A DNA stretch of 39,635 nucleotides. Origin: an uncultured Clostridia bacterium. Its GTDB lineage: Bacteria > Bacillota > Clostridia > Lachnospirales > Lachnospiraceae. This document shows positions 12,313 to 27,334 of this stretch, piece by piece. A program made the position numbers and the translations under genes. The notes below the pieces were generated by a model that was not told the origin of the DNA, did not search any database, and saw only the letters and a list, made by a program, of their open reading frames with translations. The stretch lies in the NCBI GenBank assembly GCA_947643415.1, contig CANRWA010000034.1, forward strand, positions 1 through 39,635, given 5' to 3'. Numbering within the stretch: position 1 is the first letter of the stretch; each line of letters begins with the position of its first letter.

Positions 12313-12399
12313 AATTTTGTCCTCCTTGATCCTGTTCTTAAAATCCGTTTTCATTTTCGGTGCATGTACTACACCTGCATATACTGCACTGTCACTTTT

Positions 12400-12471
12400 A
12401 TTATCGGAAATCTGAACATAAAACCCTATAACTTTATCCCGAGGTACAGATTTTTTCCCCGAAGTACAGAT
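12400..12471 (-). promoter_or_regulatory. LytTR-type promoter of the DUF6033/exporter cluster
   Basis: On the plus strand TACAGATTTTTT occurs at 12445 and again at 12465, exactly 20 bp apart, joined by CCCCGAAG. Read on the minus strand the ATCTGTA pair lies 39 bp upstream of GATAAT (12400-12405). The 19-base core TACAGATTTTTTCCCCGAA is perfectly conserved at three other promoters in the window. The lay-out (two direct repeats about two helical turns apart, then a -10 without a good -35) is that of LytTR activator promoters. Binding by the 13839-14591 protein is inferred. This copy has the most complete repeat pair. Confidence 0.65.
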
Positions 12472-12541
12472 TTTTTTATATTTTTTCTCTAAAATGCTCT
12501 AAACTGATCCTAAATCTACCTTATGGTTTACGCTTTTCCGC

Positions 12542-13834
12542 CTATCGGTTCAGGATCACGTCGCTGTAAAATTTCCCGTTCCCGTTTTTATAGAGGACAC
12601 TGCCACCATATTTCTCCACACACCGCTGCACATTCAGACAGCCGATGCCAGTGCCTCTCCCGCCTGTACTTACTGGTCTGCCGTTCTTTATCCTCACTTC
12701 CTGTTCCACACTGTTCTCAATGCGAATGGAAAGCATCTCATTATAATTTTTGATATGCACCTTGATATAGCGCTCCCCGCTGCACTTCAGGGCAGCCTGC
12801 ATTGCATTTTCCAGCAGGTTCCCAAAGAGCGTTGTCACATCCACCGGCTCTATGAAACCAAGCCCTGTGCTTTCCACCTTTACCACGAACCGGATGCCCA
12901 TGCTCTCCGCCGCCTGCTTCCTGTCCGCAAGGAGAATGTTCAGCATGGGATTGTCAGAGTATTCCTCCGGCACAAGGGGCTTTAAGATGCCCCCGATCTG
13001 CCTTGTGTATTCCATTGCCTTGTCCGTCACGCCTGCCCGGTACAGCTCCTCAATGGAACGGATGTGTTTGCTGACATCATGGAGGATTTCAATAGATTTT
13101 CCGTATTTCTCCCGCTGCCTCTCATAATGCTCAAACTGCATACTCTCCTGCTGTTTCATCATAGCGATCTGGAACTCCATGCTGTTCTTTTCATCCTCCA
13201 CTTTCAGGGAATAAAACAGGTATAGGTTCGCAAAGACAACGCAGCATAGGTTTGCACATAGCAGGAAATAGTCTGCTTTCCTTGTGACCGCTGTTACAAG
13301 GATGATAAAATTGACCACACTGTATAAAAACATGACAAGGTAAAGAATCATCTGCGTCCGGCTCTGCCTGTAATCCTTTTTCCACAGCCGTCTCATCAGG
13401 GCATAGTAAAAGAAGATCAACACCAGCTTTGAAAAAGCCACCTCTATGCTGCCCGTGATCACCACATCCTCCGGCATAAGTGAAAGTTTTTCCATCAAAA
13501 GGTCAATCCCAAACACACCGATGCCCTCAAACAATGCAATCATGATAAAAAAGCATTCCGATTCCACCACCCGCCAGTATCTCCTGTCAGTTTTATCCTC
13601 ATAAAAGATAAAACTGACAATACCGAACACCAGAAAATTTGTCCCCATATTCCACCATGTATTATGCTTTAAGTTCACCAGCGTTACGATCACCACGGCG
13701 GCAGCGGCGGCAATCCGGTAAACCCACGGATTTCCAAAGGCTTTCCCATAACGGTCACCCATGAACTGGAACATCAGCCCGGCAATGATCACACATGACA
13801 GAAAGCAACTGAACAGATATACTAAATTTTCCAT
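12542..13834 (-). CDS. AgrC-like sensor histidine kinase (GHKL type)
   Basis: A 430-residue membrane kinase. About six hydrophobic segments fill residues 1-210. The dimerisation/phospho site is LHDVSKHIRSIEELY with His252, followed by a GHKL ATPase with the N-box LFGNLLENAMQAA (about 345) and GGRGTGIGCLNVQRCVEKYG. This is the AgrC/PlnB/ComD group, which senses peptides outside the cell and partners LytTR regulators. The ATG at 13834 follows a GGGGAG and overlaps the end of the regulator region by position (regulator stop at 13839, so a four-base gap). It is cotranscribed with the LytTR gene. The ligand is not evident. Confidence 0.85.
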   Translation of the reverse strand: MENLVYLFSCFLSCVIIAGLMFQFMGDRYGKAFGNPWVYRIAAAAAVVIVTLVNLKHNTWWNMGTNFLVFGIVSFIFYEDKTDRRYWRVVESECFFIMIALFEGIGVFGIDLLMEKLSLMPEDVVITGSIEVAFSKLVLIFFYYALMRRLWKKDYRQSRTQMILYLVMFLYSVVNFIILVTAVTRKADYFLLCANLCCVVFANLYLFYSLKVEDEKNSMEFQIAMMKQQESMQFEHYERQREKYGKSIEILHDVSKHIRSIEELYRAGVTDKAMEYTRQIGGILKPLVPEEYSDNPMLNILLADRKQAAESMGIRFVVKVESTGLGFIEPVDVTTLFGNLLENAMQAALKCSGERYIKVHIKNYNEMLSIRIENSVEQEVRIKNGRPVSTGGRGTGIGCLNVQRCVEKYGGSVLYKNGNGKFYSDVILNR

Positions 13835-13838
13835 GCCC

Positions 13839-14591
13839 CTACTCCCCACTGCTATGGATATATTCGTTGAGCCGTTCCTTGAACTGCGCCACCCGCTTCT
13901 GTGACAGCGGCACTGACACACCGTTTTTCAACACGACCTCATATCCCTTTGTCTTTGCCACATTTTTAAGGTTTACAAGGATGCCCCGGCAGCTCGTCTC
14001 AAAACCGTAAGGCTGCATCCGCTCCTCCAGTCCGCTGATGGCATCCGGGTACTCGTACAGCATATTTTCCGTCACGATTTTGACCTTCTTTTTCGCCTTG
14101 ATGTATTCAAAGTACAGGATCGTATCAACGGGAAGCAACAGGACAGGCTTTTCCGACAGGACGCCGTTTTCCTCATAGGATACGTTCTTAAACTCCAGCC
14201 GCACTTCTTCTTTCCGATGCTGCCGCAGAAATGCCTGCAGCTGTTCCTCCAGTGCTGCCGCCGATACCGGCTTTTCCAAAAAGGCAAAAGCATGTACGGT
14301 GTTCACTGCATCCATGCAGTATTGCCCGAAATTTGTGATGTATATGATCTTTGCAGAATGGTTCCTGCTGTAAAGCTCCTGTCCTGTTTCGATTCCGTTC
14401 CTGCCCTCCATCATAATATCCATGAAGATCAGGTGGAAGCTGTCGTCCGACTGTAACAGCTCCCCACCGGAGATAAAGTTTGTGATCCGGTATTCTTCTG
14501 ATTCTATGTATTTGTCTAAAAGCGGTTTCAGGATGCCTATGAGGTGATCCCTGTCCGCCTGTTCATCCTCGCAGACTGCTATCTGAAGCAT
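13839..14591 (-). CDS. LytTR-family response regulator (AgrA-like)
   Basis: A 250-residue response regulator. The receiver (1-120) has acidic pocket EDE (8-10), phospho-acceptor Asp58 in HLIFMDIMMEGRNG, and the conserved lysine in LEKPVSA. The C-terminal LytTR domain (about 145-245) includes ILYFEYIKAKKKVKIVTENM and SCRGILVNLKNVAKTKGYEV, ending in LSQKRVAQFKERLNEYI. AAAGGAGG precedes the ATG at 14591. This type activates promoters through paired direct repeats, and such repeats occur at four promoters in the window. It is the likely master regulator of the cargo. Confidence 0.9.
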   Translation of the reverse strand: MLQIAVCEDEQADRDHLIGILKPLLDKYIESEEYRITNFISGGELLQSDDSFHLIFMDIMMEGRNGIETGQELYSRNHSAKIIYITNFGQYCMDAVNTVHAFAFLEKPVSAAALEEQLQAFLRQHRKEEVRLEFKNVSYEENGVLSEKPVLLLPVDTILYFEYIKAKKKVKIVTENMLYEYPDAISGLEERMQPYGFETSCRGILVNLKNVAKTKGYEVVLKNGVSVPLSQKRVAQFKERLNEYIHSSGE

Positions 14592-14662
14592 TGGTTCATG
14601 CCTCCTTTGCTGTTTTATGTTTAGGGGATTGGTACTGTGGTGTGAATGCAATACCCCTTTTT

Positions 14663-14668
14663 ATTATA
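14663..14668 (-). promoter_or_regulatory. Possible -10 before the LytTR regulator gene
   Basis: CATGTATAAT, read on the minus strand, overlaps the stop codon of the protease gene and lies about 70 bases before the regulator ATG. CATGTATAAT also occurs at two of the four LytTR-type promoters, but no ATCTGTA repeat is seen upstream here. It may give basal expression of the regulator and kinase. Confidence 0.4.
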
Positions 14669-15470
14669 CATGGTCTGCTATGCCATTCCTATTTTTTCTC
14701 TGTAATCCGATAAATACTGCAAGCAGTATGACATTAACTGCCAAAACAACAATACTTCCTTCTATTTTACATTCCCCGCCAGATAAAAGGTCACTTCCTG
14801 AAAAAGTCATATTCAGCAGATGCGGGTAATCATCTGCCAGCGACACACCACCTAATACTAACGCACCTATCCCATTCCATATAAAGTGCATGACCGCTGG
14901 TGCTATAAGAGAACCGCTATATTCCAAAATAACCGTCATAAGCAGACTCATTGTGAGAACATTCACTACCGGAACCACGCCCGCCTCAAATGCGCCTCCA
15001 TGCAATAATGTAAACAGCGCCGTGGTTACTATGGTAGAAACCACGATATTATGCTTTTGTTTCAGAATTTGATAAAGTAAGCCCCTCACAAGCAGTTCCT
15101 GCATGATAACATTCAGAAAAGCCGCCAATACCCATACGAAAAATAAAGGGATATCATTCTTTCCGCTAAAATCTATAACTCCCATCAACTTCATAATAAA
15201 TACAGGAACTCCCAACCACAAAATTCCCGTTATAATTCCTATCATAATTCCTTTTGCCGGATTATTAAAAAGTTGTAATTTTATAGTTTTCTTTTCAATT
15301 AACAAAAAAATGAATGTAAATGCTATAATTGACAACAACGGTGTGATTTCTGCCCATAATCTCCATACAGCAGGATTATCCGAATTGGACAAAGGCAACA
15401 CCGCTGACAATATTGCCCACCCTAAGAAAAAGCATATACATTCTATAAAAGTTATCACTATCCTTTTCAA
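14664..15470 (-). CDS. CPBP-family intramembrane metalloprotease
   Basis: A 268-residue membrane protein with about eight hydrophobic segments. The CPBP (Abi) motifs are present: QELLVRG (EExxxR with the first Glu as Gln), FTLLH (FxxxH) and HFIWN (HxxxN). In bacteriocin and Agr-like loci such proteins act in immunity or peptide processing. The best start is TTG at 15470, with GGAGG eight bases upstream; a TTG at 15497 is further up with no site. The gene lies behind a LytTR-type promoter and upstream of the LytTR-AgrC pair, and so is probably in the same transcript, giving positive feedback. Confidence 0.8.
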   Translation of the reverse strand: MKRIVITFIECICFFLGWAILSAVLPLSNSDNPAVWRLWAEITPLLSIIAFTFIFLLIEKKTIKLQLFNNPAKGIMIGIITGILWLGVPVFIMKLMGVIDFSGKNDIPLFFVWVLAAFLNVIMQELLVRGLLYQILKQKHNIVVSTIVTTALFTLLHGGAFEAGVVPVVNVLTMSLLMTVILEYSGSLIAPAVMHFIWNGIGALVLGGVSLADDYPHLLNMTFSGSDLLSGGECKIEGSIVVLAVNVILLAVFIGLQRKNRNGIADHV

Positions 15471-15505
15471 AGCGTTTTCCTCCGTTTCATTTTTCAAATA
15501 GTTTA

Positions 15506-15577
15506 ACTATAACATAATCCCCTCTAAATATCATTCACTTCATCCCGGCGTACAGATTTTTTCCCCGAAAGACAGAT
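15506..15577 (-). promoter_or_regulatory. LytTR-type promoter of the CPBP-regulator-kinase operon
   Basis: The core TACAGATTTTTTCCCCGAA is at 15551-15569 on the plus strand, and a second half-repeat GACAGAT begins at 15571, 20 bp from the first TACAGAT. TATAGT on the minus strand (plus 15506-15511) lies 39 bp downstream. If active this promoter puts the LytTR regulator under its own control. The transcript would start about 28 bases before the TTG at 15470. Confidence 0.6.
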
Positions 15578-15640
15578 AAAAGACCGGGGAATATACCTGA
15601 CAAACCTTCCCCGGTCCTTTACAGCCACATATCAATCAAC
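15549..15640 (-). repeat. Terminator-promoter module, copy A
   Basis: About 92 bases covering the LytTR-type repeats and the terminator stem. It is closely repeated at 20771-20866 with only scattered changes and small indels. The two copies flank the 15697-20599 four-gene cassette in direct orientation. Confidence 0.8.
15582..15616 (-). terminator. Terminator after the second ABC/FtsX module
   Basis: GACCGGGGAA (15582-15591) pairs perfectly with TTCCCCGGTC (15607-15616), a ten-base GC-rich stem. Reading on the minus strand it is followed by TTTT. It lies between the FtsX gene and the next LytTR-type promoter, and is near-identical to a hairpin at 20804-20840. Confidence 0.75.
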
Positions 15641-15695
15641 CACTCTTTGCTTCTCTTGCTTTTCCAACAAAATCATGTTCCAAAGCAATATCCAT
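15636..15695 (-). CDS. Candidate 19-residue peptide
   Basis: A short frame starting one base after the FtsX stop (TAA T ATG) encodes MDIALEHDFVGKAREAKSG and ends in TGA just before the terminator. AAAGGAATGG precedes the ATG at fair spacing. It has no double-glycine leader or cysteine and no hydrophobic core. Its position at the end of a peptide-sensing ABC operon makes it worth noting, but it could be chance. Confidence 0.3.
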   Translation of the reverse strand: MDIALEHDFVGKAREAKSG

Positions 15696-15696
15696 A

Positions 15697-18117
15697 TTAT
15701 TCCATTCCTTTCACATACTCTGCAAGTGTCCTTTTTTCACAATAGCGAATAGCCAGTACAGAATATCCTAAAGCAATCATCACGAGAGCCGCAAAGAAAA
15801 TAAACATAGGCAGTAATGGGAATGTATAGTCCAGTTCCCCTAACAGACCAATCTGACTGAATGCCCGGCATAAAATATATCCGAGGATAGTCCCGATCGT
15901 CAAAGTAACAGCCATTGTTGCCAATACATAATGAAAAGATTCTGCCCACAGCATTTTTGACAGCTGTTTATTAGACAGCCCGACAGAACGCAGAACACCA
16001 AATTCCTGCTGTCTCGAAACAAAATTAGTCATAAGCGTATTGATAAGGTTAATCAGTGCAAAGATACCGATAAATACCACCAGTACATAGGCTGCTCTCA
16101 TCGCTATTTTTAATGATTCTTCAAGGAAGGAAATCATTTCATTGATGCTCCGGACTTCCAGTTCCGGGTTAATGCCACAAATCTCATAAATGGTATCTTC
16201 TGCCTGAGAAATATTTGCTAAATCTGTACTGAATAACAGTTTTGAATTAAAATTCGTTGTGCCAGCTTTGATCACGTTCAGTAAATCCTGTGGTACAAAA
16301 ATATAGTATCCCTCATAAAGCTTATCCGGCAGATTGACAGTTGCCATTACCTTAAATGGAATCTTTTCTCCTTCATCAGTTTCTATTTGAACAGTATCCC
16401 CTACCACAGCTTCATAATGTGCAAATGATTTCACCATGCCGGAAGAATCATCTATTATGATTCCATGTTCTTCAACCAGCTTATCGTAATCCAATGTCCC
16501 ATTTAACAAAGCATCCTGATAACTTTCGAGATACTCTCTTGAAAGCCCCACTATATCATAATAAGGCTGATCCTCCACATTGACATTATCAGGAAAGAAC
16601 ATATTTGCAGTACAGCTTTGAACTGACAATATATCCCCAACCATTGCTTCCTCAGTTAATTTTGTGAAAAGCTCCTGATTTAACGGATTATTTTGCTGTA
16701 ATTTATCAGCTACCGGAACATATGGGGAAAATGTATCCCCAGCTGGAGACAGGGATACTTCAAATTCATAACCATACAATTGCTGGTAGGCCATAGCCAC
16801 AGGATTTATAGACAGCATTATGGTAGATGCACACATGAGGAAAATCCCCGTAAATCCCAAAGAAAATAAGGTCAGGACAGTCCGTTTCCTGTTGCGGGAA
16901 AAATTAATCCCGGCAAGGGTATAAGGTGTAATCTTCCGGTGAAGTTTTTTTGTGTCACCAAGTTTCGCAACATCTGTTGTTGTCGTAATTCTGACTGCCT
17001 CCACCGGAGAAACTGATGTGGCAATCCGCACAGGCTTCCGTATGGACAGCCCGACTGTTATTTCCATAACAAGGGCGGTAATAACTGCAAATCTGACCGT
17101 ATTCGGTAAGTACCAGCCATCGGGAATGAGCAGGTATCCAATGATACTGCCGCTAACTATACCTGCAGGAATGGACAGCAGTGACAGTTTCCGGCTTTCC
17201 TTACGCACAAGATACTTCATCTGTTTCTGGGTAATACCAACAACACGCAAACGCCCATACTCCTTTACCTTCCCTGTGACAGATATATAAAACAGACTAT
17301 AAACAACCGTAGAGCAGGCAATAATAATCAAAATACTGACCAGCACAGTGGTAAGCGTGTTACTGGATGCGTTATCAAAAGTACTAAAGTAAGAAGAACT
17401 GAATGCAATATCCGCTTCACCAAAACCATAAGGCTCCATACAGGCAAGGATATACTGTTTTAATTCATCCGTTCCCATAGTCTCACTTCCAGACATCCGT
17501 ATCAGCGCCGAATAAGGAATGTCCATACCCGAAAAATAGGATTCCAAAAGTGCCTGTGAAACCAGAACTTCATATGAATTGCTTGCGTTCTCATCCTTTA
17601 TCAGCCCACAGACTGTATATTCTGAAGGAACATTTTGCCCCAATTCAAGGGTAACTGACTCTCCCAGCGCTGGTTCTATCCCCTGTTTTTCCAGATAAGA
17701 TGTTGGAATGGCAATTTCTGTTTCCTTTTCAGGCAGCCGCCCCTGCGTTAATTCATGGGAATACAGAAGGAAAGCCGCTTCATCATAATATGTTACACTC
17801 AGCCTGTCCTTTCCAATCCGCAGTTCCTTCAGCGGCATAACAAGCGACAATCCCACCTGCTCAATCGTTTCATCTTTTGATAAAGCGGTGAACTGCTCTG
17901 GATTCACATAGAGAACTGCCGCCTGTAAACGTCCCTGGTAAAGTTTTCTGGTCTGGTAACTGCCGCCGAAAACATAAAGAGCAAGTGACATCATAAGGCA
18001 GGAGGCAAACGCAATCGTTATAATGATAAAAATATTGCGGCGCTTGTCGGCTCTAATACTTTTGTCTGCCAGACGGTTTATTATCTTATTTGAGCTTGCC
18101 GTAAATAAAGAAATCAC
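15697..18117 (-). CDS. ABC permease with two FtsX domains (BceB-like or macrolide-export type)
   Basis: An 806-residue permease. It has an N-terminal membrane segment (NIFIIITIAFASCLMMSLAL), a large extracytoplasmic domain (about 55-250), three to four segments in the middle, a second extracytoplasmic domain (about 455-690) and three C-terminal segments. The FtsX-type coupling motif VSRQQEFGVLRSVGLSNKQL is near the C-terminus. The start is GTG at 18117, with AAGGAGG eight bases upstream, 13 bases after the ATPase stop. It pairs with the 18131-18796 ATPase. Together with the HK and RR upstream this resembles modules that sense and remove antimicrobial peptides. Confidence 0.85.
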   Translation of the reverse strand: MISLFTASSNKIINRLADKSIRADKRRNIFIIITIAFASCLMMSLALYVFGGSYQTRKLYQGRLQAAVLYVNPEQFTALSKDETIEQVGLSLVMPLKELRIGKDRLSVTYYDEAAFLLYSHELTQGRLPEKETEIAIPTSYLEKQGIEPALGESVTLELGQNVPSEYTVCGLIKDENASNSYEVLVSQALLESYFSGMDIPYSALIRMSGSETMGTDELKQYILACMEPYGFGEADIAFSSSYFSTFDNASSNTLTTVLVSILIIIACSTVVYSLFYISVTGKVKEYGRLRVVGITQKQMKYLVRKESRKLSLLSIPAGIVSGSIIGYLLIPDGWYLPNTVRFAVITALVMEITVGLSIRKPVRIATSVSPVEAVRITTTTDVAKLGDTKKLHRKITPYTLAGINFSRNRKRTVLTLFSLGFTGIFLMCASTIMLSINPVAMAYQQLYGYEFEVSLSPAGDTFSPYVPVADKLQQNNPLNQELFTKLTEEAMVGDILSVQSCTANMFFPDNVNVEDQPYYDIVGLSREYLESYQDALLNGTLDYDKLVEEHGIIIDDSSGMVKSFAHYEAVVGDTVQIETDEGEKIPFKVMATVNLPDKLYEGYYIFVPQDLLNVIKAGTTNFNSKLLFSTDLANISQAEDTIYEICGINPELEVRSINEMISFLEESLKIAMRAAYVLVVFIGIFALINLINTLMTNFVSRQQEFGVLRSVGLSNKQLSKMLWAESFHYVLATMAVTLTIGTILGYILCRAFSQIGLLGELDYTFPLLPMFIFFAALVMIALGYSVLAIRYCEKRTLAEYVKGME

Positions 18118-18130
18118 TGCACCGTCCTCC

Positions 18131-18796
18131 TTATCCCATAATCCTGCCGTCTTCAATGCGGATGATACGGTCCGCAAGAAGGGCAATGTCGTTATTGTGG
18201 GTAATCATTACAATAGTCTGGTTAAATTTCTCACTTGTAAGTTTTAAAAGCCCCAATACATCGGCACTGCTCTTGCTGTCGAGATTACCTGTAGGTTCAT
18301 CGGCAAGGACGATTGCAGGCTTAGTGATCAGCGCTCTTGCGATTGCTACACGCTGCTGCTGTCCGCCGGAAAGATTGTTCGGCATACTTTTCAATTTATT
18401 TTCCAAAGAAAGTACATGAATCACTTCATCCGCAAAATTCCGGTCTACGATGCCTCCGTCCAACTCCACAGGCAGGACGATATTCTCATATACATTTAAG
18501 ATCGGAACCAGATTATAATTCTGAAAAACAAACCCTATGTTCCGTCTGCGGAAAATGGTAAGTTCCTCATCGTTCATTTGGGAAAGCTCTTTCTCATGGA
18601 CAATGACCGAACCGGAAGTCGGGGTATCCAGACCGCCGATCATATGTAATAAAGTTGATTTACCAGAGCCGGAAGTACCGACTATGGCAACGAATTCTCC
18701 TTTATTGACAGATAAATCCACATCATCCACTGCACAGGTGATGTTAGGTTCTTTCCCATAATATTTTTTTAAATGTTTTGTCTGCAATATCTGCAT
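18131..18796 (-). CDS. ABC transporter ATPase (BceA/LolD/MacB type)
   Basis: A 221-residue ATPase. Walker A is GTSGSGKS (residues 40-47), the Q-loop is FVFQNYNLVP, the signature is LSGGQQQRVAIARAL (142-156), Walker B is IVLADEPTGNLD (162-173), and the H-loop is VMITHNNDIA. The family drives FtsX-type permeases that move antimicrobial peptides or lipoproteins. GGAGG precedes the ATG. A TATAAT lies in the 97-base gap upstream, so the transporter genes may also have their own promoter. Confidence 0.92.
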   Translation of the reverse strand: MQILQTKHLKKYYGKEPNITCAVDDVDLSVNKGEFVAIVGTSGSGKSTLLHMIGGLDTPTSGSVIVHEKELSQMNDEELTIFRRRNIGFVFQNYNLVPILNVYENIVLPVELDGGIVDRNFADEVIHVLSLENKLKSMPNNLSGGQQQRVAIARALITKPAIVLADEPTGNLDSKSSADVLGLLKLTSEKFNQTIVMITHNNDIALLADRIIRIEDGRIMG

Positions 18797-18855
18797 AGTG
18801 AACTGCCTCCTACTGTATTATTTCCACATTCGTCTGAACGACACTGTTATTTTTC

Positions 18856-18861
18856 ATTATA
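18856..18861 (-). promoter_or_regulatory. Candidate promoter for the ABC/FtsX pair
   Basis: On the minus strand TTATAATG lies about 60 bases before the ATPase ATG. TTAAGATTT lies about 20 bases further upstream, similar to the RR boxes at 27175-27215. In Bce-type systems the transporter pair has its own regulator-dependent promoter, so the same is plausible here. Confidence 0.4.
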
Positions 18862-18892
18862 AAGAGGAAATGTTGCAGAAATCTTAACAGAA

Positions 18893-19915
18893 TCACAGCG
18901 GAATAAAAATCTCAAATTCACTTCCGGAATTAACAGTAGAATTCACCAAAATGTAGCCATGCTGGAGAGTAATAATCTGTTTGCACAGATACAGACCAAT
19001 ACCATTTCCCTCTGATATATTTGTATTCCCACGCCAAAATCTTATAAAAATATTGGACAGATCAGCAGGCGGGATTCCAATACCGGTATCTCTGATTGAA
19101 ATCTTGATATACTTTTCTGTCCTGTTAAGCAGTATTGTTAGTTTTCCGTTTTGCGGTGTATACTTAATGGCATTTTCCATTACATTAAACAGTGCCTCAC
19201 TTGTCCACTTTGGATCATGCAGGACAATATAGTCTGTTGTATTATCATAATACACCTCTATATCTTTCTTCTCTGCAGGCACAAGTATCCCTTCCAACGC
19301 TGAAAGTATCGTCTGCCCAATGGAAGTCTCCCTTGGCTGTATCTGAATCAATCCGTTTTCAAGTTGTGATGTTTTTAGTAATGCCCGTATTAAAAAGTCT
19401 ATTTTGTCCAGCTGCTTCCCTTGCTTTTCCAGACAATCTCGATATTCCTCTCGCAAAATGCCCGGCTGCTTTAATGCTTCCTGTAAAAGATGCAGATTAG
19501 TGAGAGGTGTCTTTAGCTGATGTGAAATATCAGAAACAAAGGATTGTACTTTACTTTTTTCCTTTTCTATCGAACTCTGCTGCATCTGCAGAACATCATA
19601 TAAGCGGTTCAGCTGATGATAAATCTGTGAAATATAGGTATCATCAATATCATCATAAGTTGTGACAGCTTCCTGGTTCATCATCTTATCCATCATGACA
19701 AACAGGTTTGTAAAAAAATCCGAAAATGTTCTTTTTATTAAAAGCCAGGCTATACAGATAAACAAAATGAAAGTAATCTGTGAGAAGATAAGGACAACCA
19801 TACTGCTTCTGTTAACCGAGATAAAAATAAGCATCAGGTTTATAATCAGGATGCCATAAAACAAAAATTTAACAGCTGTAAAATACTTTTTATTCTTCAA
19901 TTTATTTCTCCTCAT
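18893..19915 (-). CDS. Sensor histidine kinase of the second ABC module
   Basis: A 340-residue kinase with two membrane segments (about 15-33 and 38-60), a very short external loop, a DHp helix with SDISHQLKTPLTNL (His132) and a HATPase domain with NVMENAIKYTP, DTGIGIP and GNGIGLYLCK. The short loop is typical of intramembrane-sensing BceS-like kinases, which depend on their ABC transporter to perceive the peptide. The ATG at 19915 lies one base after the regulator stop without a clear site. A TTG at 19900 has GAGGAG seven bases upstream and may be the true start. Confidence 0.85.
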   Translation of the reverse strand: MRRNKLKNKKYFTAVKFLFYGILIINLMLIFISVNRSSMVVLIFSQITFILFICIAWLLIKRTFSDFFTNLFVMMDKMMNQEAVTTYDDIDDTYISQIYHQLNRLYDVLQMQQSSIEKEKSKVQSFVSDISHQLKTPLTNLHLLQEALKQPGILREEYRDCLEKQGKQLDKIDFLIRALLKTSQLENGLIQIQPRETSIGQTILSALEGILVPAEKKDIEVYYDNTTDYIVLHDPKWTSEALFNVMENAIKYTPQNGKLTILLNRTEKYIKISIRDTGIGIPPADLSNIFIRFWRGNTNISEGNGIGLYLCKQIITLQHGYILVNSTVNSGSEFEIFIPL

Positions 19916-19918
19916 TAC

Positions 19919-20599
19919 TTATTCGTCTGCAATCCACATATAACCTGTGCCATATACCGTCTTAATATATCGGTGAGCAGCAGAATCAATTTTCCCCCTG
20001 ATCCGGCTGACCATGCTGTTAAGAGATGTTTCCTCCACATAATTCCCTCGCCTGTCCCATACCACGTCCAGAATTTTTTCCCTTGTAACTATGTGCCCTG
20101 GATTTTTTACCAGCAGTTCCAGAAACTTAAATTCCAAAGGAGTTAATTCTATCGGTTCGTCCGCCGCATAAGCAGTTAAAGCGGCAAAATCTATCCGCAG
20201 ATAGGAATCGGAATAAATTACCCCGGAAAATTCCTTTTCCATCCGGTTTGTGACAGCCGCTATCTTTTTCAGCAAAACAGGGAGGGAAAAAGGCTTGGTC
20301 ACATAGTCATCAGCTCCCATGTTGTAACCTTTTATTATATCGTTTTCCAGATCCTTTGCTGTAAGAAAAATGATTCTGGTATCTATTGAAATCTGTCGGA
20401 TTTCTTCACAGACAGCAAAACCATTACCGTCAGGCAATGTAATATCCAGCAAAATAAGATCAAACTTCAAATTTCTAATCTTCGTGACAGCATCTTCTTT
20501 TGTGTATGCCCATGTGGTATGATATCCATTTTGATCCAAATGCCGGGTCAGCGTTTCACTTAAAGTCCGGTCATCTTCCACTAACAATATTTTTTTCAT
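19919..20599 (-). CDS. OmpR-family response regulator of the second ABC module
   Basis: A 226-residue regulator. The receiver has EDD (8-10), phospho-acceptor Asp52 in LILLDITLPDGNG and the lysine in VTKPFSLPVLL. The winged-helix domain (about 130-225) has IELTPLEFKFLELLVKNPGH and ends SRIRGKIDSAAHRYIKTVYGTGYMW. The ATG at 20599 fits GGAG six bases upstream; a longer frame begins at 20614. It lies at the head of the module behind a LytTR-type promoter and a 124-base leader. It probably activates the ABC genes behind it. Confidence 0.9.
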   Translation of the reverse strand: MKKILLVEDDRTLSETLTRHLDQNGYHTTWAYTKEDAVTKIRNLKFDLILLDITLPDGNGFAVCEEIRQISIDTRIIFLTAKDLENDIIKGYNMGADDYVTKPFSLPVLLKKIAAVTNRMEKEFSGVIYSDSYLRIDFAALTAYAADEPIELTPLEFKFLELLVKNPGHIVTREKILDVVWDRRGNYVEETSLNSMVSRIRGKIDSAAHRYIKTVYGTGYMWIADE

Positions 20600-20729
20600 A
20601 ATAATCTCCATCAATCTGTTATTCGGTTGAATATGTGGTAATGAACATTTTGCTTCATTCTAAAGTACATCATTTACTAATAGATAGCTACTTCTCATTT
20701 CTGTTAAAATTAGGGATACTTTATTATAT

Positions 20730-20799
20730 ATTATACATGATTTACTCCTGTTAAAAAAAGTGATTTGCGATATACAGATTTTTTCCCCGAAAGACAGAT
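20730..20799 (-). promoter_or_regulatory. LytTR-type promoter of the second ABC/two-component module
   Basis: The core TACAGATTTTTTCCCCGAA is at 20773-20791 and a second half-repeat GACAGAT starts at 20793. CATGTATAAT on the minus strand (plus 20730-20735) lies exactly 37 bp downstream of the inner repeat. The same 37-bp spacing and the AGTAAATCATG before the -10 are found at 27236-27305. No -35 hexamer is evident, as expected for an activator-dependent promoter. Confidence 0.65.
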
Positions 20800-20866
20800 A
20801 AAAGACCGGGGAAGGATACCTGACAAACCTTTCCCGGTTCTTTACAGCCACACATATCAAACAACA
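20771..20866 (-). repeat. Terminator-promoter module, copy B
   Basis: The direct partner of 15549-15640. The stem GACCGGGGAA at 20804 pairs with TTCCCGGTTC (20831-20840) with a bulge and is followed by TTTT on the minus strand. It serves as terminator of the 20857-21138 gene and promoter of the next module. Confidence 0.75.
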
Positions 20867-21138: not shown

Positions 21139-21151
21139 ACCGCATCCTCCT

Positions 21152-21228
21152 TTTGTCTCACTTTTACAACCGATTTTAATATGTAATGCCATTAAAATCA
21201 ATAGTGGTGGTGCAAAAAGTGAGACAAA
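21152..21228. promoter_or_regulatory. Operator-like dyads between divergent Xre and acidic-protein genes
   Basis: TTTGTCTCACTTTT (21152-21165) is repeated in perfect inverted orientation at 21215-21228. GATTTTAAT (21172-21180) and ATTAAAATC (21191-21199) form an inner nine-base dyad. The two lie between divergent starts and flank likely promoter elements for both genes. The obvious binder is the Xre protein encoded at 21264. Confidence 0.6.
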
Positions 21229-21263
21229 CTTCTCGACACATTTCGACAGATTGGAGGACAACT

Positions 21264-21515
21264 ATGCCAAAACCAAGGACTACATCCGGCGAAAAGAACC
21301 TGATCAGCAGTCGCCTTATCGAGTTAAGGAAACAGCAGAACCTTTCCCAGCGTGACCTTGCCCATAAGCTGCAGCTTGCCGGATATGACATGGACAAGAA
21401 CGTGATCACCCGCATTGAAACCAACAAGCGGTATGTCACGGATATTGAGCTGCGGGCCTTATCGGAGGTGCTGGGCGTCAGCTATGCGTTTCTGATTGAT
21501 GGAGAGGATAAATAG
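21264..21515 (+). CDS. Xre-family transcriptional regulator
   Basis: An 83-residue protein that is nearly all helix-turn-helix: LIELRKQQNLSQRDLAHKLQLAGYDMDKNVITRIETNKRYVTDIELRALSEVLGVSYAFL. GGAGG at 21253-21257 fits the ATG at 21264. It closely resembles the 84-residue Xre at 27893 in domain lay-out (SQ..LA.(K/R)LQL.G then RIE...R.V.D.E...LSE). It sits divergent from the small acidic protein and probably represses both genes through the dyads at 21152-21228. Confidence 0.85.
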   Translation: MPKPRTTSGEKNLISSRLIELRKQQNLSQRDLAHKLQLAGYDMDKNVITRIETNKRYVTDIELRALSEVLGVSYAFLIDGEDK

Positions 21516-21566
21516 CAAAAAGCAAGCGGCTAACACGCTCTCTAAATATGTTAATATTACTTAACA

Positions 21567-21603
21567 AAAAGGACATGGAAAGACTTTACTCCCATATCCT
21601 TTT
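21567..21603. terminator. Bidirectional terminator
   Basis: AAAAGGACATGG (21567-21578) pairs with CCATATCCTTTT (21592-21603), with one mismatch that would be a G-U or A-C pair. A-rich and T-rich sides make it work for the Xre gene on the plus strand and the lipoprotein on the minus strand, which converge here. Confidence 0.65.
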
Positions 21604-21663
21604 CTACTTTATCGGCTTTTTGTAACTGCTGGTTTTTCTTTTCCGCTGGTGCGCTGGAATTAT

Positions 21664-21918
21664 TTAATCTGAAATACCTTCTTCCACTTTATCAAGAATG
21701 TATGATGTGAATTTGCCCTCCACACTATCACTTGGGAAATCTTCTTCCAGCTCTACCTTTATACTTTCAAATTCTTGTTGCAGTTCTTCCTTTTCTCCTG
21801 CTGTCAAGTCGTCCCAGTTTTTATTATTAGCGTATGTGCAGCCGCTCAAGCTGATTACAATCATACCTAATACAGCCAAAGCAAGAAATTGTTTTTTGAT
21901 ATTTTTTATCAGTCTCAT
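21664..21918 (-). CDS. Small lipoprotein at the end of the first ABC module
   Basis: An 84-residue protein with a signal peptide ending in lipobox LSGC (cysteine 27). The mature part is only about 57 residues, acidic, with a coiled stretch (WDDLTAGEKEELQQEFESIKVELEE) and a short C-terminal helix. AAAGGAG precedes the ATG. It lies 77 bases after the histidine kinase gene and probably belongs to that operon. It could shield the cell or assist the sensing of a peptide, but this is inference; no family was recognised. Confidence 0.75.
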   Translation of the reverse strand: MRLIKNIKKQFLALAVLGMIVISLSGCTYANNKNWDDLTAGEKEELQQEFESIKVELEEDFPSDSVEGKFTSYILDKVEEGISD

Positions 21919-21994
21919 AACTATCTCCTTTTTACAAAATATATTTACTTAAAATTCACTCACATATTTTTTTACGAAACCCACAGAATCAAAT

Positions 21995-23251
21995 TCAGGA
22001 AGCCAACGCCAGACATATCCTAACTTCAAACCATGCGTTTTCTTCAGATTGGCAAAGCAGTCTTCCACCCATGCCTTTCACAAGATACTCTGCGATGTAC
22101 ATACCCATTCCGGAGCCTTCCTTTTCTTTTGCATTCTGCCCCCTGAAATATTTCTGTGTAAGGAATATTTCCTCTTCCTTTTTTACGCCTTTCCCAAAGT
22201 CTTTTATGCAGACGCACAGAAATTCACCCTCAAAACCGCAACGGACTTCTATCTCCGTATCTGCATATTTGTAACTGTTAGAGATGATATTGTCCACTAC
22301 CTGCAAAAACCGTACCCTGTCAGCCATAACAAGACACTCCGGTATCTCAAACTCCTTTACACGTTTCCTGAAATCTGCCTGCAGCAATGCTTCCTCTATG
22401 GCAGAACTTTCCGTTACTTCCGTTCTTATCTCAAGTCTTTCAAGCTCATTTAGCATAGTTGTGTGAAGATTGCCAATCATCCTGCTTATCTGGTTCGTTT
22501 TTCGGGCAATCGTCTCAAACTCCTGACGCAATTCCTCTGAATCTGTCGTCAGGGACTGGTACTCGGCAATCGCCTGAATGGAAGCCACCGGGTTTTTAAT
22601 ATCATGGCTGATAGAAACGATCACTTCACGCCGCTGCTTATCTGCCTCCTGCTCCCTCTTCCTCGCATAAAGCAGTTCCTCTCTCATAATGTCAAAGCTT
22701 TCTGAAAAAGCACCAAAAGCTGAACTGTCGATTCTGCTCACCGGAATGTCCAGATTCCCTTTTGCTATCTGGCCGGCAAAATCATTCATCTTTCTCACCG
22801 GTCCGAACACATGCTTCTTTAAATATAAAAACACAAGGACATCTTTCAAAAATAATACAACAAGAAACGATATCGCCCAAACTTCAACTTTTCTTTTTAA
22901 ATCTTCCCCTTCGTTATTGATAAAGATAATCCTGCCCTGAATTTTACCATCCACCAGAATATCTACGCTGTAATCTTTATGGATGAAATCGTACACATAA
23001 TCCGTATCCAGCCCCTGTCTGGATGCAGCTACCGGCCGGCCATCGGCATCGGTTACAAAATAGTCCGTTTCATACCCCTGCATCATACTGACTGCCTGCT
23101 CCGCATCCGGCCAGTATTCCCTGACAGTAAATATAATGTCATTTGCCTCAGTATTCTTTATTTTATTCTGCGGTCTGGCTGCCAAAATACAGCACAATGA
23201 AATGCAGGCTGCCAAATATAAACTGACGGTGATCACAATAAAGCGCTTCAC
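21995..23251 (-). CDS. Sensor histidine kinase of the first ABC module
   Basis: A 418-residue kinase. A signal-anchor (7-25), an external domain of about 95 residues, and a second membrane segment (about 125-145) precede a HAMP-like linker (VFGPVRKMNDFAGQIAKGNL). The DHp is VSISHDIKNPVASIQ with His216, and the HATPase has VDNIISNSYKYAD, DFGKGV and GSGMGMYIAEYL. The start is GTG, one codon after the regulator stop, with AAAGGAG. Unlike the kinase at 18893, it has a sizeable external sensor, so it may bind its ligand directly. Confidence 0.85.
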   Translation of the reverse strand: MKRFIVITVSLYLAACISLCCILAARPQNKIKNTEANDIIFTVREYWPDAEQAVSMMQGYETDYFVTDADGRPVAASRQGLDTDYVYDFIHKDYSVDILVDGKIQGRIIFINNEGEDLKRKVEVWAISFLVVLFLKDVLVFLYLKKHVFGPVRKMNDFAGQIAKGNLDIPVSRIDSSAFGAFSESFDIMREELLYARKREQEADKQRREVIVSISHDIKNPVASIQAIAEYQSLTTDSEELRQEFETIARKTNQISRMIGNLHTTMLNELERLEIRTEVTESSAIEEALLQADFRKRVKEFEIPECLVMADRVRFLQVVDNIISNSYKYADTEIEVRCGFEGEFLCVCIKDFGKGVKKEEEIFLTQKYFRGQNAKEKEGSGMGMYIAEYLVKGMGGRLLCQSEENAWFEVRICLALAS

Positions 23252-23935
23252 TTAATTCTCCTTTGCCAGACGGAACATATAGCCTTTCCCATATTCTGTA
23301 ATGATATAGACTGGGCTGGAAGGGTTATCCTCAACCTTTTCACGCAGCTTCCTTATGTGGACATTCAGTGTCCCGTCCCCCACATAAGCCTCCTGCCACA
23401 CTTCCTTAAAAAGTTCCTCTTTCCCGACCAGACGGTTCCTGTTTCGGATAAGATAAAGCAATAGCTTCATCTCCATCCTTTTCAGCAGGACAGGCTCACC
23501 TTTTTTTAATAAAGTTTCTTCTTCCATGTTCACCTGACATTCCCCAAAAGAAATAATCCTGTCATCCCCGGCAGAATACCTCCGTAACACAGCCTTTACT
23601 TTCGCCAGAAGAATAGGCAGGGAATAGGGCTTGCAAATAAAATCATCGCCGCCCACATTCAAGCCTAACAGAATACTTTCTTCTTCCGTCTGGCAGCTTA
23701 CAAAGATGATTGGAACCTGTGTCTCCTCCCGTATCTGCCTGCACAGGTTGTACCCGCACCCATCCCCCAGGTTAATGTCCAACAGAATCATACGGGCGGT
23801 ATTTTCCCGTATAAATTCACGATATTCCTCCACACCCGATACCGCCGCCACCTTTATCCCCGAAAGGCTCAAATATTTACAGGTGTTTTCCGCCAATGGT
23901 GCCTCGTCTTCTATCATCAGACAATCATATACCAA
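23252..23935 (-). CDS. OmpR-family response regulator of the first ABC module
   Basis: A 227-residue regulator. The receiver has EDE (9-11) and phospho-acceptor Asp53 in RMILLDINLGDGCG, then a winged-helix with LLKRMEMKLLLYLIRNRNRL and GTLNVHIRKLREKVEDNPSS, ending ITEYGKGYMFRL. TTG at 23935 is chosen because AGGAAGGAAG lies eight bases upstream; a GTG at 23962 is possible but lacks a site. It lies 28 bases after the FtsX gene. The TTAAG repeats at 27175-27215 are its likely autoregulatory target. Confidence 0.85.
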   Translation of the reverse strand: MVYDCLMIEDEAPLAENTCKYLSLSGIKVAAVSGVEEYREFIRENTARMILLDINLGDGCGYNLCRQIREETQVPIIFVSCQTEEESILLGLNVGGDDFICKPYSLPILLAKVKAVLRRYSAGDDRIISFGECQVNMEEETLLKKGEPVLLKRMEMKLLLYLIRNRNRLVGKEELFKEVWQEAYVGDGTLNVHIRKLREKVEDNPSSPVYIITEYGKGYMFRLAKEN

Positions 23936-23963
23936 TTTATCCGCTTCCTTCCTTTTACCCACG

Positions 23964-26324
23964 CTACTCTGCCTTTATGAGAGTACAAGGGACAATCTTC
24001 CTGACTTTCCATGCTGAAATAAACGCTGTCAGGCATCCTGCCGCTTCCATGCACAAGATAAGCGCTGCAATCCACACTATGGGAAAACGGAAAGAAATCC
24101 GATAAACTCCCATTCCATGAAAAAGCCCTGTCATCACTGCATTAGAGCCAAAATACAGGAAGATGCTTCCCAGCAGGCTGCCCCCTGCGATATACAGCAT
24201 AAATGTCACCACTGTCTGGGATATAATCTGTCCGTTGGAATACCCCAGCGCCTTCATTATCCCAAAATCCCTTTTGCGTGTCAATAAAATGGAATTTGTT
24301 ACAAAATACCCCATAATGACAATGAGCAGGAACATGACAGCCATAATAAAGAACACCACGCCGGACACACTGTTTATGATTGGGGCAAGCTGGGAATAAA
24401 ACACCTGTTCAAACTCCCCCACATAGGAAAGCCGGTCTGAAAAACAGTCTTTAAGGTTTCGGCAGTATTCCTCTGCGTCAATTCCCTCCTCCAGATAGAC
24501 ATGCACTGTCTGCCACTGTGCTGTAGAATCAATCAGATTCAGCCCTTCCATAGTAAGGTAGATATCCATCCCTCCTGTATAGGTGCCTTGCGTAAGGCCG
24601 ACGATCAGGAATGTCCCTTCCCCTGCATCTTCCTGAAAGAGCTGGGACACTTCTACAGTATCACCGATATTCTTTCCGAGCGCCTGCGCCAGATTCCCTG
24701 AAATAGCAGTTTCATTTTCATGTTTCGGATATCGCCCTGCATATATCGAGGGATTTTCCAATACCTCATAATCACTATACACGCCTAACGCCGCATATAC
24801 CCTATTATCACACAGAAGTCTTGAACTTCCCGGCTCAACAGCCATCATGACCTTACGGACGCCCTCTCCCTCCAGTTCCTTAGCTATCTCTGCTGCATCC
24901 TCCGGTCTGTCTGGCTGGACATTTACAGAATAAACTTCCGCACCCGTTACCTGCAGCAGCCCTCCCTTATCATTGACCAACCTTGCATACAGGATTACTG
25001 CAAACCCGGCAACACACATTAAAACAGATACGACAATGCCTGTCAGTATGCTCCTTGCCCTCTCAAAACTTATCATCTTAATTATAACGGACAGGTTTAC
25101 CGGGAAAGGTGTTTTTTCTATGTCCATCCTGCTTTTTCTGCCAGGAACCACTTTTTCCCTTTCCTGAATGGCTTCCACAGGTCTTAACCTGAATATCCCT
25201 TTTGACAAAAACACTGTTACCGCCACAGTCGCCAGCAAAATAACCATAAGGTTCTTCCCTGCTTCAAACCCCAAAAATACAGCGTTCCATACAAAACCAA
25301 TATCCGTCGCTATACTCTTTATCACCATCGGCATGATGCACTGTGAAATTCCCACACCAGCCATACCGCCAAGCGATCCAAGAAACAGGAACTGTAACGC
25401 ATAGGACAATACAATCTGACCGCCCCTGTAACCCACTGCTTTCAATGTCCCAAGTTCCTTTAAGTCCTTATCCAAGATATTCCGCATATGGAACGCAATC
25501 ACCATAAAGCAGGCTGCGATTCCCATAACGGAGGCTGCATTTATGACTGCCACATATATACTTAAGTTATTGCTCCGGCTGGCTTCGGCATATTCAATAT
25601 CCGAAGTATTATAAAATATATCCCCGTCAGATTTTCCGGCTACAAATTCTGTAAACCGATTTGACAGCCCGCTTACATCCCCTTCCGTCTTCATCATCAC
25701 TACTACCGCATCGCAGTCTGTCCCTGCCCTTTCCCCCAAAGAAAGGAACGCTTCTCTTGGCAGATCGAAAGCAATATTTGACCGGCTTCCAAAAAGCACA
25801 TCCTCCGTAAAACCTGCAATGATATAAGAATCCTGCCATTCTTCGGATGAAATGCTAAACACATCACCAATCTCAAAACCAAAGAATGTCTTACACACAT
25901 AAGGTACATAGATTCCATTTTCCGGCACCTGCTCCAAACGCTCCACTATTTTAAGGGAAGATAGATATCCCTGCCTGTCAGCATTCCTAAACATCCAGCT
26001 CCCATTTACCGGCTCCCCGGTTCCTGCCTGAATATCCATACTCCGAAGCAACACGGCATCCACCATTTCCATATCAATTATTTCTTCCTCTGCTTTCCGG
26101 AAGCCCTCAATCTCTTCCCCGTATTTTTCACAAAAACCACGGGGCAGGACCGCCGCAAAATCAGCACTGTTCGTCTCCGCTGCCTTTTCCTGATACAGCC
26201 GCCTAAATCCCTCCGTCATCTGGCTGCCGGTATAGGACAGAAGCATCGTTGCCATGAGCAAAAGGAAAAACGCAAATGACGTTTTACCACTCTTTTTTAA
26301 GTTTGATCTTATCAGCAAAAACAT
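23964..26324 (-). CDS. FtsX-domain ABC permease (peptide-sensing or export type)
   Basis: A 786-residue permease. A membrane segment at about 15-35 (TSFAFFLLLMATMLLSYTGS) precedes an external domain (about 40-240), then four segments, a second large external domain (about 430-640) and three C-terminal segments. Two FtsX-type coupling motifs are visible: LKELGTLKAVGYRGGQIVLS and RKRDFGIMKALGYSNGQIIS. The ATG at 26324 follows the ATPase stop directly (TAGATATG), so translation is coupled. It differs in sequence from the 15697-18117 permease, so it is not a recent duplicate. It probably handles a different substrate. Confidence 0.85.
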   Translation of the reverse strand: MFLLIRSNLKKSGKTSFAFFLLLMATMLLSYTGSQMTEGFRRLYQEKAAETNSADFAAVLPRGFCEKYGEEIEGFRKAEEEIIDMEMVDAVLLRSMDIQAGTGEPVNGSWMFRNADRQGYLSSLKIVERLEQVPENGIYVPYVCKTFFGFEIGDVFSISSEEWQDSYIIAGFTEDVLFGSRSNIAFDLPREAFLSLGERAGTDCDAVVVMMKTEGDVSGLSNRFTEFVAGKSDGDIFYNTSDIEYAEASRSNNLSIYVAVINAASVMGIAACFMVIAFHMRNILDKDLKELGTLKAVGYRGGQIVLSYALQFLFLGSLGGMAGVGISQCIMPMVIKSIATDIGFVWNAVFLGFEAGKNLMVILLATVAVTVFLSKGIFRLRPVEAIQEREKVVPGRKSRMDIEKTPFPVNLSVIIKMISFERARSILTGIVVSVLMCVAGFAVILYARLVNDKGGLLQVTGAEVYSVNVQPDRPEDAAEIAKELEGEGVRKVMMAVEPGSSRLLCDNRVYAALGVYSDYEVLENPSIYAGRYPKHENETAISGNLAQALGKNIGDTVEVSQLFQEDAGEGTFLIVGLTQGTYTGGMDIYLTMEGLNLIDSTAQWQTVHVYLEEGIDAEEYCRNLKDCFSDRLSYVGEFEQVFYSQLAPIINSVSGVVFFIMAVMFLLIVIMGYFVTNSILLTRKRDFGIMKALGYSNGQIISQTVVTFMLYIAGGSLLGSIFLYFGSNAVMTGLFHGMGVYRISFRFPIVWIAALILCMEAAGCLTAFISAWKVRKIVPCTLIKAE

Positions 26325-26326
26325 AT

Positions 26327-27106
26327 CTACCACCCCATTTCTTCCAGAAAATGGAGCAGCTTTGCTTTTCTCTCTTCAAAGCCCGGTTCCTTTTCACCCT
26401 GATAAGCCCCTAAAGAGCATTCCCCGTTTATCCTCCCGTCCCGCAGATACAGGATACGGTTTCCACGCAATGCTGATTTCAGGTCATGGGTTACCATGAT
26501 AGTCGTCTGCCCTTTCCGGTTAAACTCTGTCAGAAGATCCAGGACAGCTTTCCCGGAAGCAGAATCAAGCGCCCCCGTAGGTTCATCCGCAAATACGACT
26601 TCCGGATTGTTGATCAGCGCCCTTACGATGCCTGCCCTTCCCATCTGACCTCCCGAAATCTGCGAAGGATATTTCCCCCACTCCTTTTCAGTAAGCCCTA
26701 CTTCTGCAAACAATTTTCTTCCCCGCTCCGCCACCTGCTTTTTGTTCTTCTCTACAAGCAGCCCGCTCACAAGCACATTGTCCATGAGACTCATACTGCC
26801 AATTAAGCAGACCTGCTGGAAAACAAATCCACAGTTTTTCTTCCTGAACTGTGCCAACTGCTTCTCTGAATATTTTGAGAAATTGGTATCCTTAAAATAA
26901 ACTTCCCCCATGCTTGCCCTGTCCATTCCCGACAGGATATGGAGCAGTGTGGACTTTCCAGAACCGGAAGCCCCCATAAAAACAGTAAAATCTCTGTAAT
27001 ATATCTGGATATCCATGTTTTTGATCACATGCTGGGGAACTTCCCCATTCATATAGCTCTTACACAATTTATTTGTACTGATTACAGCATTTGCGTTCCT
27101 TTCCAT
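26327..27106 (-). CDS. ABC transporter ATPase of the first ABC module
   Basis: A 259-residue ATPase. Walker A is GASGSGKS (45-52), the Q-loop is FVFQQVCLIG, and Walker B is VVFADEPTGALD (170-181). The signature is ISGGQMGRAGIVRAL, where most relatives have SGGQQQRVAIARAL, a recognisable variant. The C-terminal tail of about 35 residues (GAYQGEKEPGFEERKAKLLH) is longer than in the 221-residue ATPase. GGAGG precedes the ATG. It is first in the ABC-FtsX-RR-HK-lipoprotein operon behind two tandem promoters. Confidence 0.9.
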   Translation of the reverse strand: MERNANAVISTNKLCKSYMNGEVPQHVIKNMDIQIYYRDFTVFMGASGSGKSTLLHILSGMDRASMGEVYFKDTNFSKYSEKQLAQFRKKNCGFVFQQVCLIGSMSLMDNVLVSGLLVEKNKKQVAERGRKLFAEVGLTEKEWGKYPSQISGGQMGRAGIVRALINNPEVVFADEPTGALDSASGKAVLDLLTEFNRKGQTTIMVTHDLKSALRGNRILYLRDGRINGECSLGAYQGEKEPGFEERKAKLLHFLEEMGW

Positions 27107-27160
27107 ATATTCTATCCTCCATATTGCTTTCAGCTGAAATACAAATTTATTATTTGCTAT

Positions 27161-27215
27161 ATCATATCACTCAGAATCTTAACTGTCTTTAACCGGAATC
27201 TTAACAATTCTTAAC
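27161..27215 (-). promoter_or_regulatory. RR-box promoter (P2) of the first ABC module
   Basis: On the minus strand four TTAAG/TTAAAG words occur with periods of 10, 12 and 11 bases (plus-strand AATCTTAAC at 27175 and 27197, CTTTAAC near 27187 and TCTTAAC near 27209). TATGAT (plus 27161-27166) follows at -10 distance. TTAAG repeats about one helical turn apart are typical targets of OmpR-type regulators such as CiaR. The likely binder is the regulator at 23252-23935. Confidence 0.55.
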
Positions 27216-27235
27216 TGCTGGCATTCTTTATGGTC

Positions 27236-27305
27236 ATTATACATGATTTACTTTTTTTAGAAAAAGAATTTCCTGATATACAGATTTTTTCCCCGAAAAA
27301 CAGGA
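27236..27305 (-). promoter_or_regulatory. LytTR-type promoter (P1) of the first ABC module
   Basis: The core TACAGATTTTTTCCCCGAA is at 27279-27297, with a weaker second half ACAGG near 27300, and CATGTATAAT on the minus strand (plus 27236-27241) 37 bp from the inner repeat. The spacing and the AGTAAATCATG before the -10 match 20730-20799. The second half-site is the most diverged of the four copies. Confidence 0.6.
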
Positions 27306-27334
27306 AAAAGACCAAAGAAGGAGTCCTGTAACTG

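Follow-up and report, generated by a model that had tools for sequence, protein, structure and literature searches.

The agr system of Staphylococcus pairs a GHKL sensor kinase with a LytTR response regulator (AgrC/AgrA), and its P3 promoter yields RNAIII, a regulated structured RNA. One LytTR system is reportedly also in charge of several operons with shared repeats in the PlnC/PlnD bacteriocin regulon of Lactobacillus plantarum. Integron gene-cassette arrays consist of co-oriented cassettes with a shared element between them, and there the cassettes are exchanged. At agr P2/P3, direct repeats lie upstream of the promoters, with the centre of the AgrA repeat near -60 (PMC4227749, available text). 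LytTR direct repeats are described in the available part of PMC6193735 as 9 bp long, 11-13 bp apart and just upstream of promoters; this holds for the HdrRM/BrsRM LytTR Regulatory Systems, which have positive feedback and a membrane inhibitor as partner of the regulator. Here we describe a 27-bp double repeat that recurs upstream of several operons, one of them encoding a LytTR regulator, in a 39,635-nucleotide stretch of DNA (the window) from an uncultured Clostridia bacterium of the Lachnospiraceae (contig CANRWA010000034.1 of assembly GCA_947643415.1).

The window regulator has both a receiver and a LytTR domain, a GHKL kinase is encoded beside it, and the paired repeats lie about two helical turns apart, as in AgrA/LytTR two-component systems. 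By Pfam it is not a LytTR protein without a receiver and with a membrane inhibitor, and so differs from HdrRM/BrsRM (PMC6193735, available part) in that it carries a receiver and is partnered by a kinase. The repeats have a 20-bp period and a centre near -60 (with the start site placed from the -10), a geometry consistent with that of AgrA (PMC4227749) and of other LytTR repeats (PMC6193735), as far as the available text of both sources goes. Autoregulation, which we propose here, would be a further likeness to agr. Unlike Staphylococcus agr, however, the present system has a different half-site, many operons along one element, CGATA-type -10s on its effectors and homology that breaks at the operator; moreover, no AgrB or AgrD was identified among the 40 window open reading frames (ORFs) scanned, a scan that short peptides could escape. 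In contrast to PlnC/PlnD, no bacteriocin genes were recognised, and the effectors are DUF6033, DUF3879 and FlxA-like proteins. The cassettes are apparently like those of integron arrays, but the element common to them is an operator at promoters and consists of direct repeats. These comparisons suggest a system of the agr/LytTR kind with new features, namely a modular regulon that is probably mobile and has a probable RNA output.

Results

We observed an exact 19-mer on the plus strand of the window at 12445, 15551, 20773 and 27279, while 100 shuffles of the window gave no match. At up to two mismatches, these were the only four places in the draft genome (4,608,215 bases, 94.6% complete). On the transcribed minus strand the element reads ATCTGTNNNTCGGGGAAAAAATCTGTA, a 27-bp double site with half-sites 20 bp apart from start to start; the distal half at 27279 is TCCTGT, with two mismatches. 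At all four sites, the -10 is situated 37-39 bp past the end of the element. A first-pass annotation of this DNA had given the same four positions, the second half-repeat at 20 bp with its weakness at 27279, and the same -10s (GATAAT at 12400, TATAGT at 15506, TATAAT at 20730 and 27236), and all of these were borne out. It had also held that four operons share the element. All four do, but a fifth, weaker site (GTCTGTATTTCAGGGAGAAAACCTGTA; 3699-3725, minus strand), with four mismatches to the 27-bp pattern, had been overlooked; likewise additional to that account are the candidate RNA, the two kinds of promoter and the apparent seam at the operator described below. The peptide sensing that it ascribed to the ABC modules is putative. 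In agreement with its count of a single LytTR protein, only the ORF at 13839 matched LytTR among the 40 scanned with Pfam (some short ORFs were left out). When 62 distinct sites were compared, the best -10 hexamer lay at offset 35-41 in 44, where a uniform spread over offsets 0-69 would give about 6.

Table 1. Coordinates of the sites, genes and candidate RNA in the window.
Feature	Position	Strand	Remarks
Site 1	12445..12471	-	Double repeat before DUF6033 genes; -10 CCGATAAT 12400-12407, sigma-28-like
Site 2	15551..15577	-	Before CPBP-LytTR-GHKL operon; -10 TATAGT 15506-15511
Site 3	20773..20799	-	Before module 1; -10 TATAAT 20730-20735
Site 4	27279..27305	-	Weak distal half; before module 2; -10 TATAAT 27236-27241
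Site 5	3699..3725	-	Weaker, 4 mismatches; upstream of candidate RNA; -10 TATAAT 3655-3660
LytTR response regulator (proposed binder)	13839..14591	-	Pfam Response_reg 8.4e-12, LytTR 1e-14; ATG and Shine-Dalgarno at 14591
GHKL (AgrC-like) sensor kinase	12542..13834	-	Pfam HATPase_c_5 3e-20
CPBP (Rce1-like) membrane protease	14664..15497	-	First gene of regulator operon; Pfam 1.1e-15
DUF6033 protein a	11599..12312	-	Pfam 9.1e-26; start chosen by Shine-Dalgarno
DUF6033 protein b	10389..11549	-	Pfam 1.9e-37
Module 1	15697..20614	-	OmpR-type response regulator 19919-20614, histidine kinase 18893-19915, ABC 18131-18796, FtsX permease 15697-18186; Pfam
Module 2	21995..27106	-	ABC 26327-27106, FtsX permease 23964-26333, OmpR-type response regulator 23252-23962, histidine kinase 21995-23251; Pfam
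Candidate structured non-coding RNA	3334..3650	-	Ends inferred; intrinsic terminator at end

A query with the LytTR protein gave 31 loci, of which six distant ones (L029, L031-L035) were excluded; this left 25 (L005-L028, L030) in which the ortholog is present, whole or in part. Judged from the closest relatives of its LytTR protein, the genome probably comes from a gut member of the Lachnospiraceae. In these LytTR-seeded loci, the site (up to four mismatches) was present upstream of LytTR on the same strand in 23 of 25; no site was found upstream of the partial LytTR copies of L023 and L028. A kinase match adjoined LytTR in 18 of the 25 loci (among the others, several are truncated by the end of the contig or have only part of LytTR), and the site came after the kinase in 17 of these 18, the exception being L009. 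All 22 genomes behind the LytTR loci had the site at up to three mismatches. Most copies share a contig with LytTR; G509, G510, G511, G514 and others carry additional ones on different contigs.

To avoid the bias of seeding, we also scanned 397 genomes of the family for the site alone. At up to three mismatches it was found in 8 of the 397, and a reversed-pattern control in one. Up to two mismatches, three genomes remained: G000 and G482, both with the ortholog, and G497 (G482 is the genome of L011, and hence not independent of that locus). Two of the three sites in G497 flank a LytTR of 35% identity with its kinase, and one of the two in G288 lies beside a LytTR (35%) and kinase; the kinase relatives in these two genomes are at 34-37%. 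Scanning relatives for the site with its 20-bp period, as the first-pass annotation had proposed, has thus revealed diverged sites beside other LytTR/GHKL pairs. We further searched nine regions beside paralog LytTR/kinase genes for direct repeats. Next to a 50%-identical LytTR paralog (G482b), ATTGTAC occurs twice at 20 bp just after the kinase. This was the only 20-bp spacing among the nine regions, and G296, G214 and G288 had repeats of other spacing. In this one clear case, operator and regulator appear to have changed in step between paralogs. In the plasmid collection there was no near DNA match to 12000-27400, and LytTR relatives were present in 21 records, all below 60% identity; the viral contigs had no LytTR relative and no exact match to the site pattern.

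The promoters behind the sites have two kinds of -10. CGATA-type, sigma-28-like -10s precede effector genes (DUF6033, DUF3879, FlxA-like and unnamed), and TATAAT-type (sigma-A) -10s are found at most regulator, transporter and RNA promoters. Among the 62 distinct sites, CGATA or CGATT was present at the -10 of 20/20 effector sites as against 5/42 others (Fisher 6e-12, descriptive, in a comparison framed after seeing the sequences). The classes were assigned by tblastn with window and cassette proteins, with the unclassified L007:12114 and L030 counted as non-effectors. The effector promoters appear to share a single ancestor. The sigma-28 (FliA/SigD) consensus is TAAA-N15,16-GCCGATAA; compared with it, the window DUF6033 promoter has TCCGATAA and a poor -35. 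A relaxed sigma-28 pattern, picked after a first look, was present in 17/30 DUF6033 upstream regions (antisense 0; shuffle mean 0.27, maximum 2), and a strict one in 5/30 (antisense 0; shuffle mean 0.01). At the DUF3879 promoters, the sigma-28 pattern was seen in only 1/10.

DUF6033 was present in 99 of the 298 family genomes that are 90% complete or more, and 98 of these 99 had FlhA, as compared with 150/298 overall (Fisher 1e-38, ignoring shared ancestry). In the same set, FlhA was present in 22 of the 23 genomes with DUF3879. All 23 carriers tested also had FlhA, some in pieces. From its co-occurrence with FlhA, DUF6033 is probably a flagella-linked protein, which may be exported. As judged by Pfam, the first gene of the cassette encodes DUF3879 in L005, DUF6033 in L015 and L012 (just under the curated cut-off in L012) and FlxA-like proteins in two cassettes of L010; the first genes of L011 and of one cassette of L015 had no confident Pfam match. 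In L010 (8095-9380), the site precedes genes for an ECF-type sigma factor and a zf-HC2 protein (Pfam), and L110 is similar by eye. Since the site there precedes a sigma factor gene, the regulon may feed further regulators. No paper was found in the open-access literature searched on DUF6033, DUF3879, DUF6809 or FlxA-like proteins, on direct repeats of LytTR regulons in Lachnospiraceae, or on FlxA and flagella there, and among the papers listed by broader searches, titles and abstract openings contained nothing on the present system.

To see how the sites relate to their flanks, 56 of them were compared in 1540 pairs over 100 nt on each side. Both sides were homologous in 91 pairs, only the downstream side in 53, only the upstream side in 38 and neither in 1002, with 356 falling between the two homology thresholds; the comparison covered site-bearing promoters only. 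When eight of the pairs were followed one base at a time, homology on the side that diverges was seen to end inside the site or at most 13 bases outside it. L005:1238 and L021:8989 are near identical upstream and unrelated downstream; window 3699 and L006:13715 are homologous downstream and diverged upstream. Terminator-like hairpins of the preceding cassette can be seen in the sequence to abut several sites (including sites 2 and 3), and the sites at 15551 and 20773 have upstream terminator sequence in common. The site looks like a seam where cassettes were swapped between strains, the breaks reflecting either ordinary recombination in short selected homology or the work of an enzyme. A resolvase-domain protein at 992-1699 was the only recombinase-type match in the scanned window ORFs, and no integrase was identified among them; other loci were not searched for recombinases.

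Past site 5 lies a stretch of some 315 nt, conserved and apparently non-coding, which closes with a strong hairpin of the terminator type. The folding z of 3334-3650 is -3.43, and 0/100 shuffles were as stable. We found a match to this candidate RNA in 10 of 23 genomes searched: long matches at 71-94% are present in G510 (two), G518 and G525, while those of G516 and G517 extend along most of its length at 70-71%. Four hairpins and the terminator contain 7 pairs with changes on both sides, and 0 or 1 of 500 covariation shuffles reach four of five measures, for a structure derived from the alignment tested, with few lineages and with two hairpins missing in G522. No reading frame is common to all eight sequences, G516 and G517 retaining one of 90 codons. 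Rfam at gathering thresholds gave no match in the window, which also has no tRNA. Strong hits of a model of the RNA (R1) were confined to its ten source copies; another seven were weaker (E 2e-4 to 3e-3) and were not trusted, several being antisense to true copies. Six of the ten RNA copies follow a site. The arrangement of site 5 and the candidate RNA recalls that of agr P3-RNAIII.

Around the RNA, we noted a palindrome, TTCAGCTGAA, that occurs twice in the window, at 3442 (candidate RNA) and at 27129 (leader of the site 4 ABC gene), and considered it as a point of pairing between RNA and leader. It is also present in L005, which counts with the window as one observation because the leaders are nearly identical. 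Convergent with the candidate RNA is a short protein (2930-3325, plus strand) with a weak helix-turn-helix match; by eye, it is also found next to the RNA copies of L096, L097 and L103. In L104 (G524), L105 (G509) and L106 (G526), a ACCTGTATTTC-type site precedes, by eye, a response-regulator-like gene or part of one and not the RNA.

In order of transcription, the window has module 2 (ABC-FtsX-response regulator-histidine kinase), module 1 (response regulator-histidine kinase-ABC-FtsX), the CPBP-LytTR-GHKL kinase operon, then the two DUF6033 genes and, among others, a gene for an ABC ATPase with a weak ABC-2 permease match. Small proteins at 20857-21261 and 27397-27753 (both minus strand) immediately precede sites 3 and 4. 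The latter has a weak DUF6809 match, under its cut-off. The former has no Pfam match, resembles the latter by eye and is conserved in L005, L012, L014 and L019; that its ORF is non-coding was rejected on its third-codon-position excess. Between 28556 and 38300 (minus strand) are genes for an actin-like protein, a CHC2 zinc-finger protein, an N6-methyltransferase, a RecD2-like helicase and a YqaJ-type protein. The YqaJ-type, RecD2-type, N6-methyltransferase and actin-like genes suggest that the right part of the contig is a probable mobile-element backbone, from a plasmid or an integrative element. In L017, L018 and L019, the actin-like and DUF6809 genes again lie upstream of the first site.

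Discussion

Our computations support the sites with their geometry and their link to LytTR/GHKL pairs, a division of the -10s into two classes, breaks in homology at the sites, the association of DUF6033 with flagella and the fold of the RNA. The 27-bp double repeat is very probably the operator of the LytTR regulator, serving its feedback, the two modules, the DUF6033 genes and the RNA, in cassettes that would be exchangeable. The claim of the first-pass annotation that the LytTR regulator controls the repeat-bearing operons is thus supported by comparison (the 23/25 loci, the unseeded scan and the geometry).

We infer binding, activation, sigma-28 use, synthesis and action of the RNA, and a signal. 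On stimulation of the GHKL kinase, a LytTR dimer would occupy the two half-sites and help RNA polymerase at promoters with a weak or no -35. It would in this way switch on its own operon (feedback), both ABC/two-component modules, the DUF6033 effector genes and the structured RNA. Effector promoters with CGATA-type -10s may use the flagellar sigma factor, and most others sigma-A. Each operon would form a cassette (site, promoter, genes and often a terminator), which strains would have exchanged at the site. A bolder proposal, which we put forward tentatively and with considerable doubt, is that of an agr-like mobile switch in which one operator gates both sigma-A promoters (those of sensors and of its own operon) and flagellar-sigma promoters (those of DUF6033, DUF3879 and FlxA-like proteins, as probable cargo of flagellar export) and doubles as a cassette seam, with an RNAIII-like new RNA family in its output. 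A LytTR regulator acting with sigma-28 and a regulon growing by cassette exchange at its operator would each, to our knowledge, be without precedent.

Several points weigh against a LytTR operator of this kind. The loci were seeded on LytTR, include near-duplicates (L012/L013, L017/L018, L025/L026) and are in some cases cut by contig ends, and the distance from site to LytTR, about 0.1 kb in seven loci, is up to 7 kb in others. In the DNA fetched for the remaining site of G497 and that of G288, LytTR had no match, nor did it in the 3 kb fetched for single 3-mismatch hits in four more genomes, which are probably chance matches. The paralogs G296, G433 and G214 (39-40% identity) have no ATCTGT-type repeat in about 19.5 kb. 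The half-site differs from the AgrA consensus. The sites in the -10 comparison are related and do not represent 20 independent events. As for the RNA, the fifth covariation measure, further pair types, was reached by 441/500 shuffles and shows no excess, and no site accompanies four of the ten copies (G516, G517, G000 contig 50 and G521) in the DNA fetched, which counts against an obligatory link between RNA and site.

The site could instead serve the OmpR-type regulators encoded in the two ABC modules as their operator, in Bce-like circuits, with LytTR no more than a member of their regulon. OmpR-type regulators also bind direct repeats, two of them are encoded in the window, and site C1:7374 of G288 precedes a gene matching the second at 30%, and the 17 kb fetched there contain no match to LytTR. 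However, these regulators have no match in 12 of the 23 loci with a site (tblastn, E 1e-8, fetched DNA only, so that such regulators may be encoded elsewhere in those genomes), the other sites of G497 and G288 adjoin LytTR/GHKL pairs, and it is a LytTR paralog that the changed repeat of G482b adjoins. The 20-bp period also fits LytTR repeats (PMC6193735, available part). The comparisons support a site that goes with the LytTR/GHKL pair and not with OmpR-type regulators, and we consider the latter improbable as its binders.

The one-sided homology (53 downstream-only and 38 upstream-only pairs of 1540), the breaks within or close to the site in the eight walked pairs and the resolvase-domain protein would all suit an element that is chiefly a recombination site, integron-like or resolvase-driven, with promoters secondary. 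Yet the spacing from site to -10 is fixed, the site is linked to LytTR/GHKL pairs, the repeat is altered where the regulator is altered (G482b), and the halves are direct and not inverted, which makes this reading just as improbable. Least credible of all is a functionless, neutral flank duplicated along with the modules: the terminator sequence common to 15551 and 20773 is what such copying would leave, but sites persist with different downstream genes while their flanks diverge, and half-sites and spacing are kept.

A LytTR operator within exchangeable cassettes, the reading we prefer, offers a chain from regulator through operator to effector for DUF6033, DUF3879 and FlxA-like proteins. It suggests that regulons can be rebuilt through swaps of whole operons at the operator, and the apparent joint change of operator and regulator in G482b is material for studies of LytTR specificity. 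Together, these observations suggest that flagella-linked proteins and a structured RNA are under the control of agr-type switches in Lachnospiraceae of the gut.

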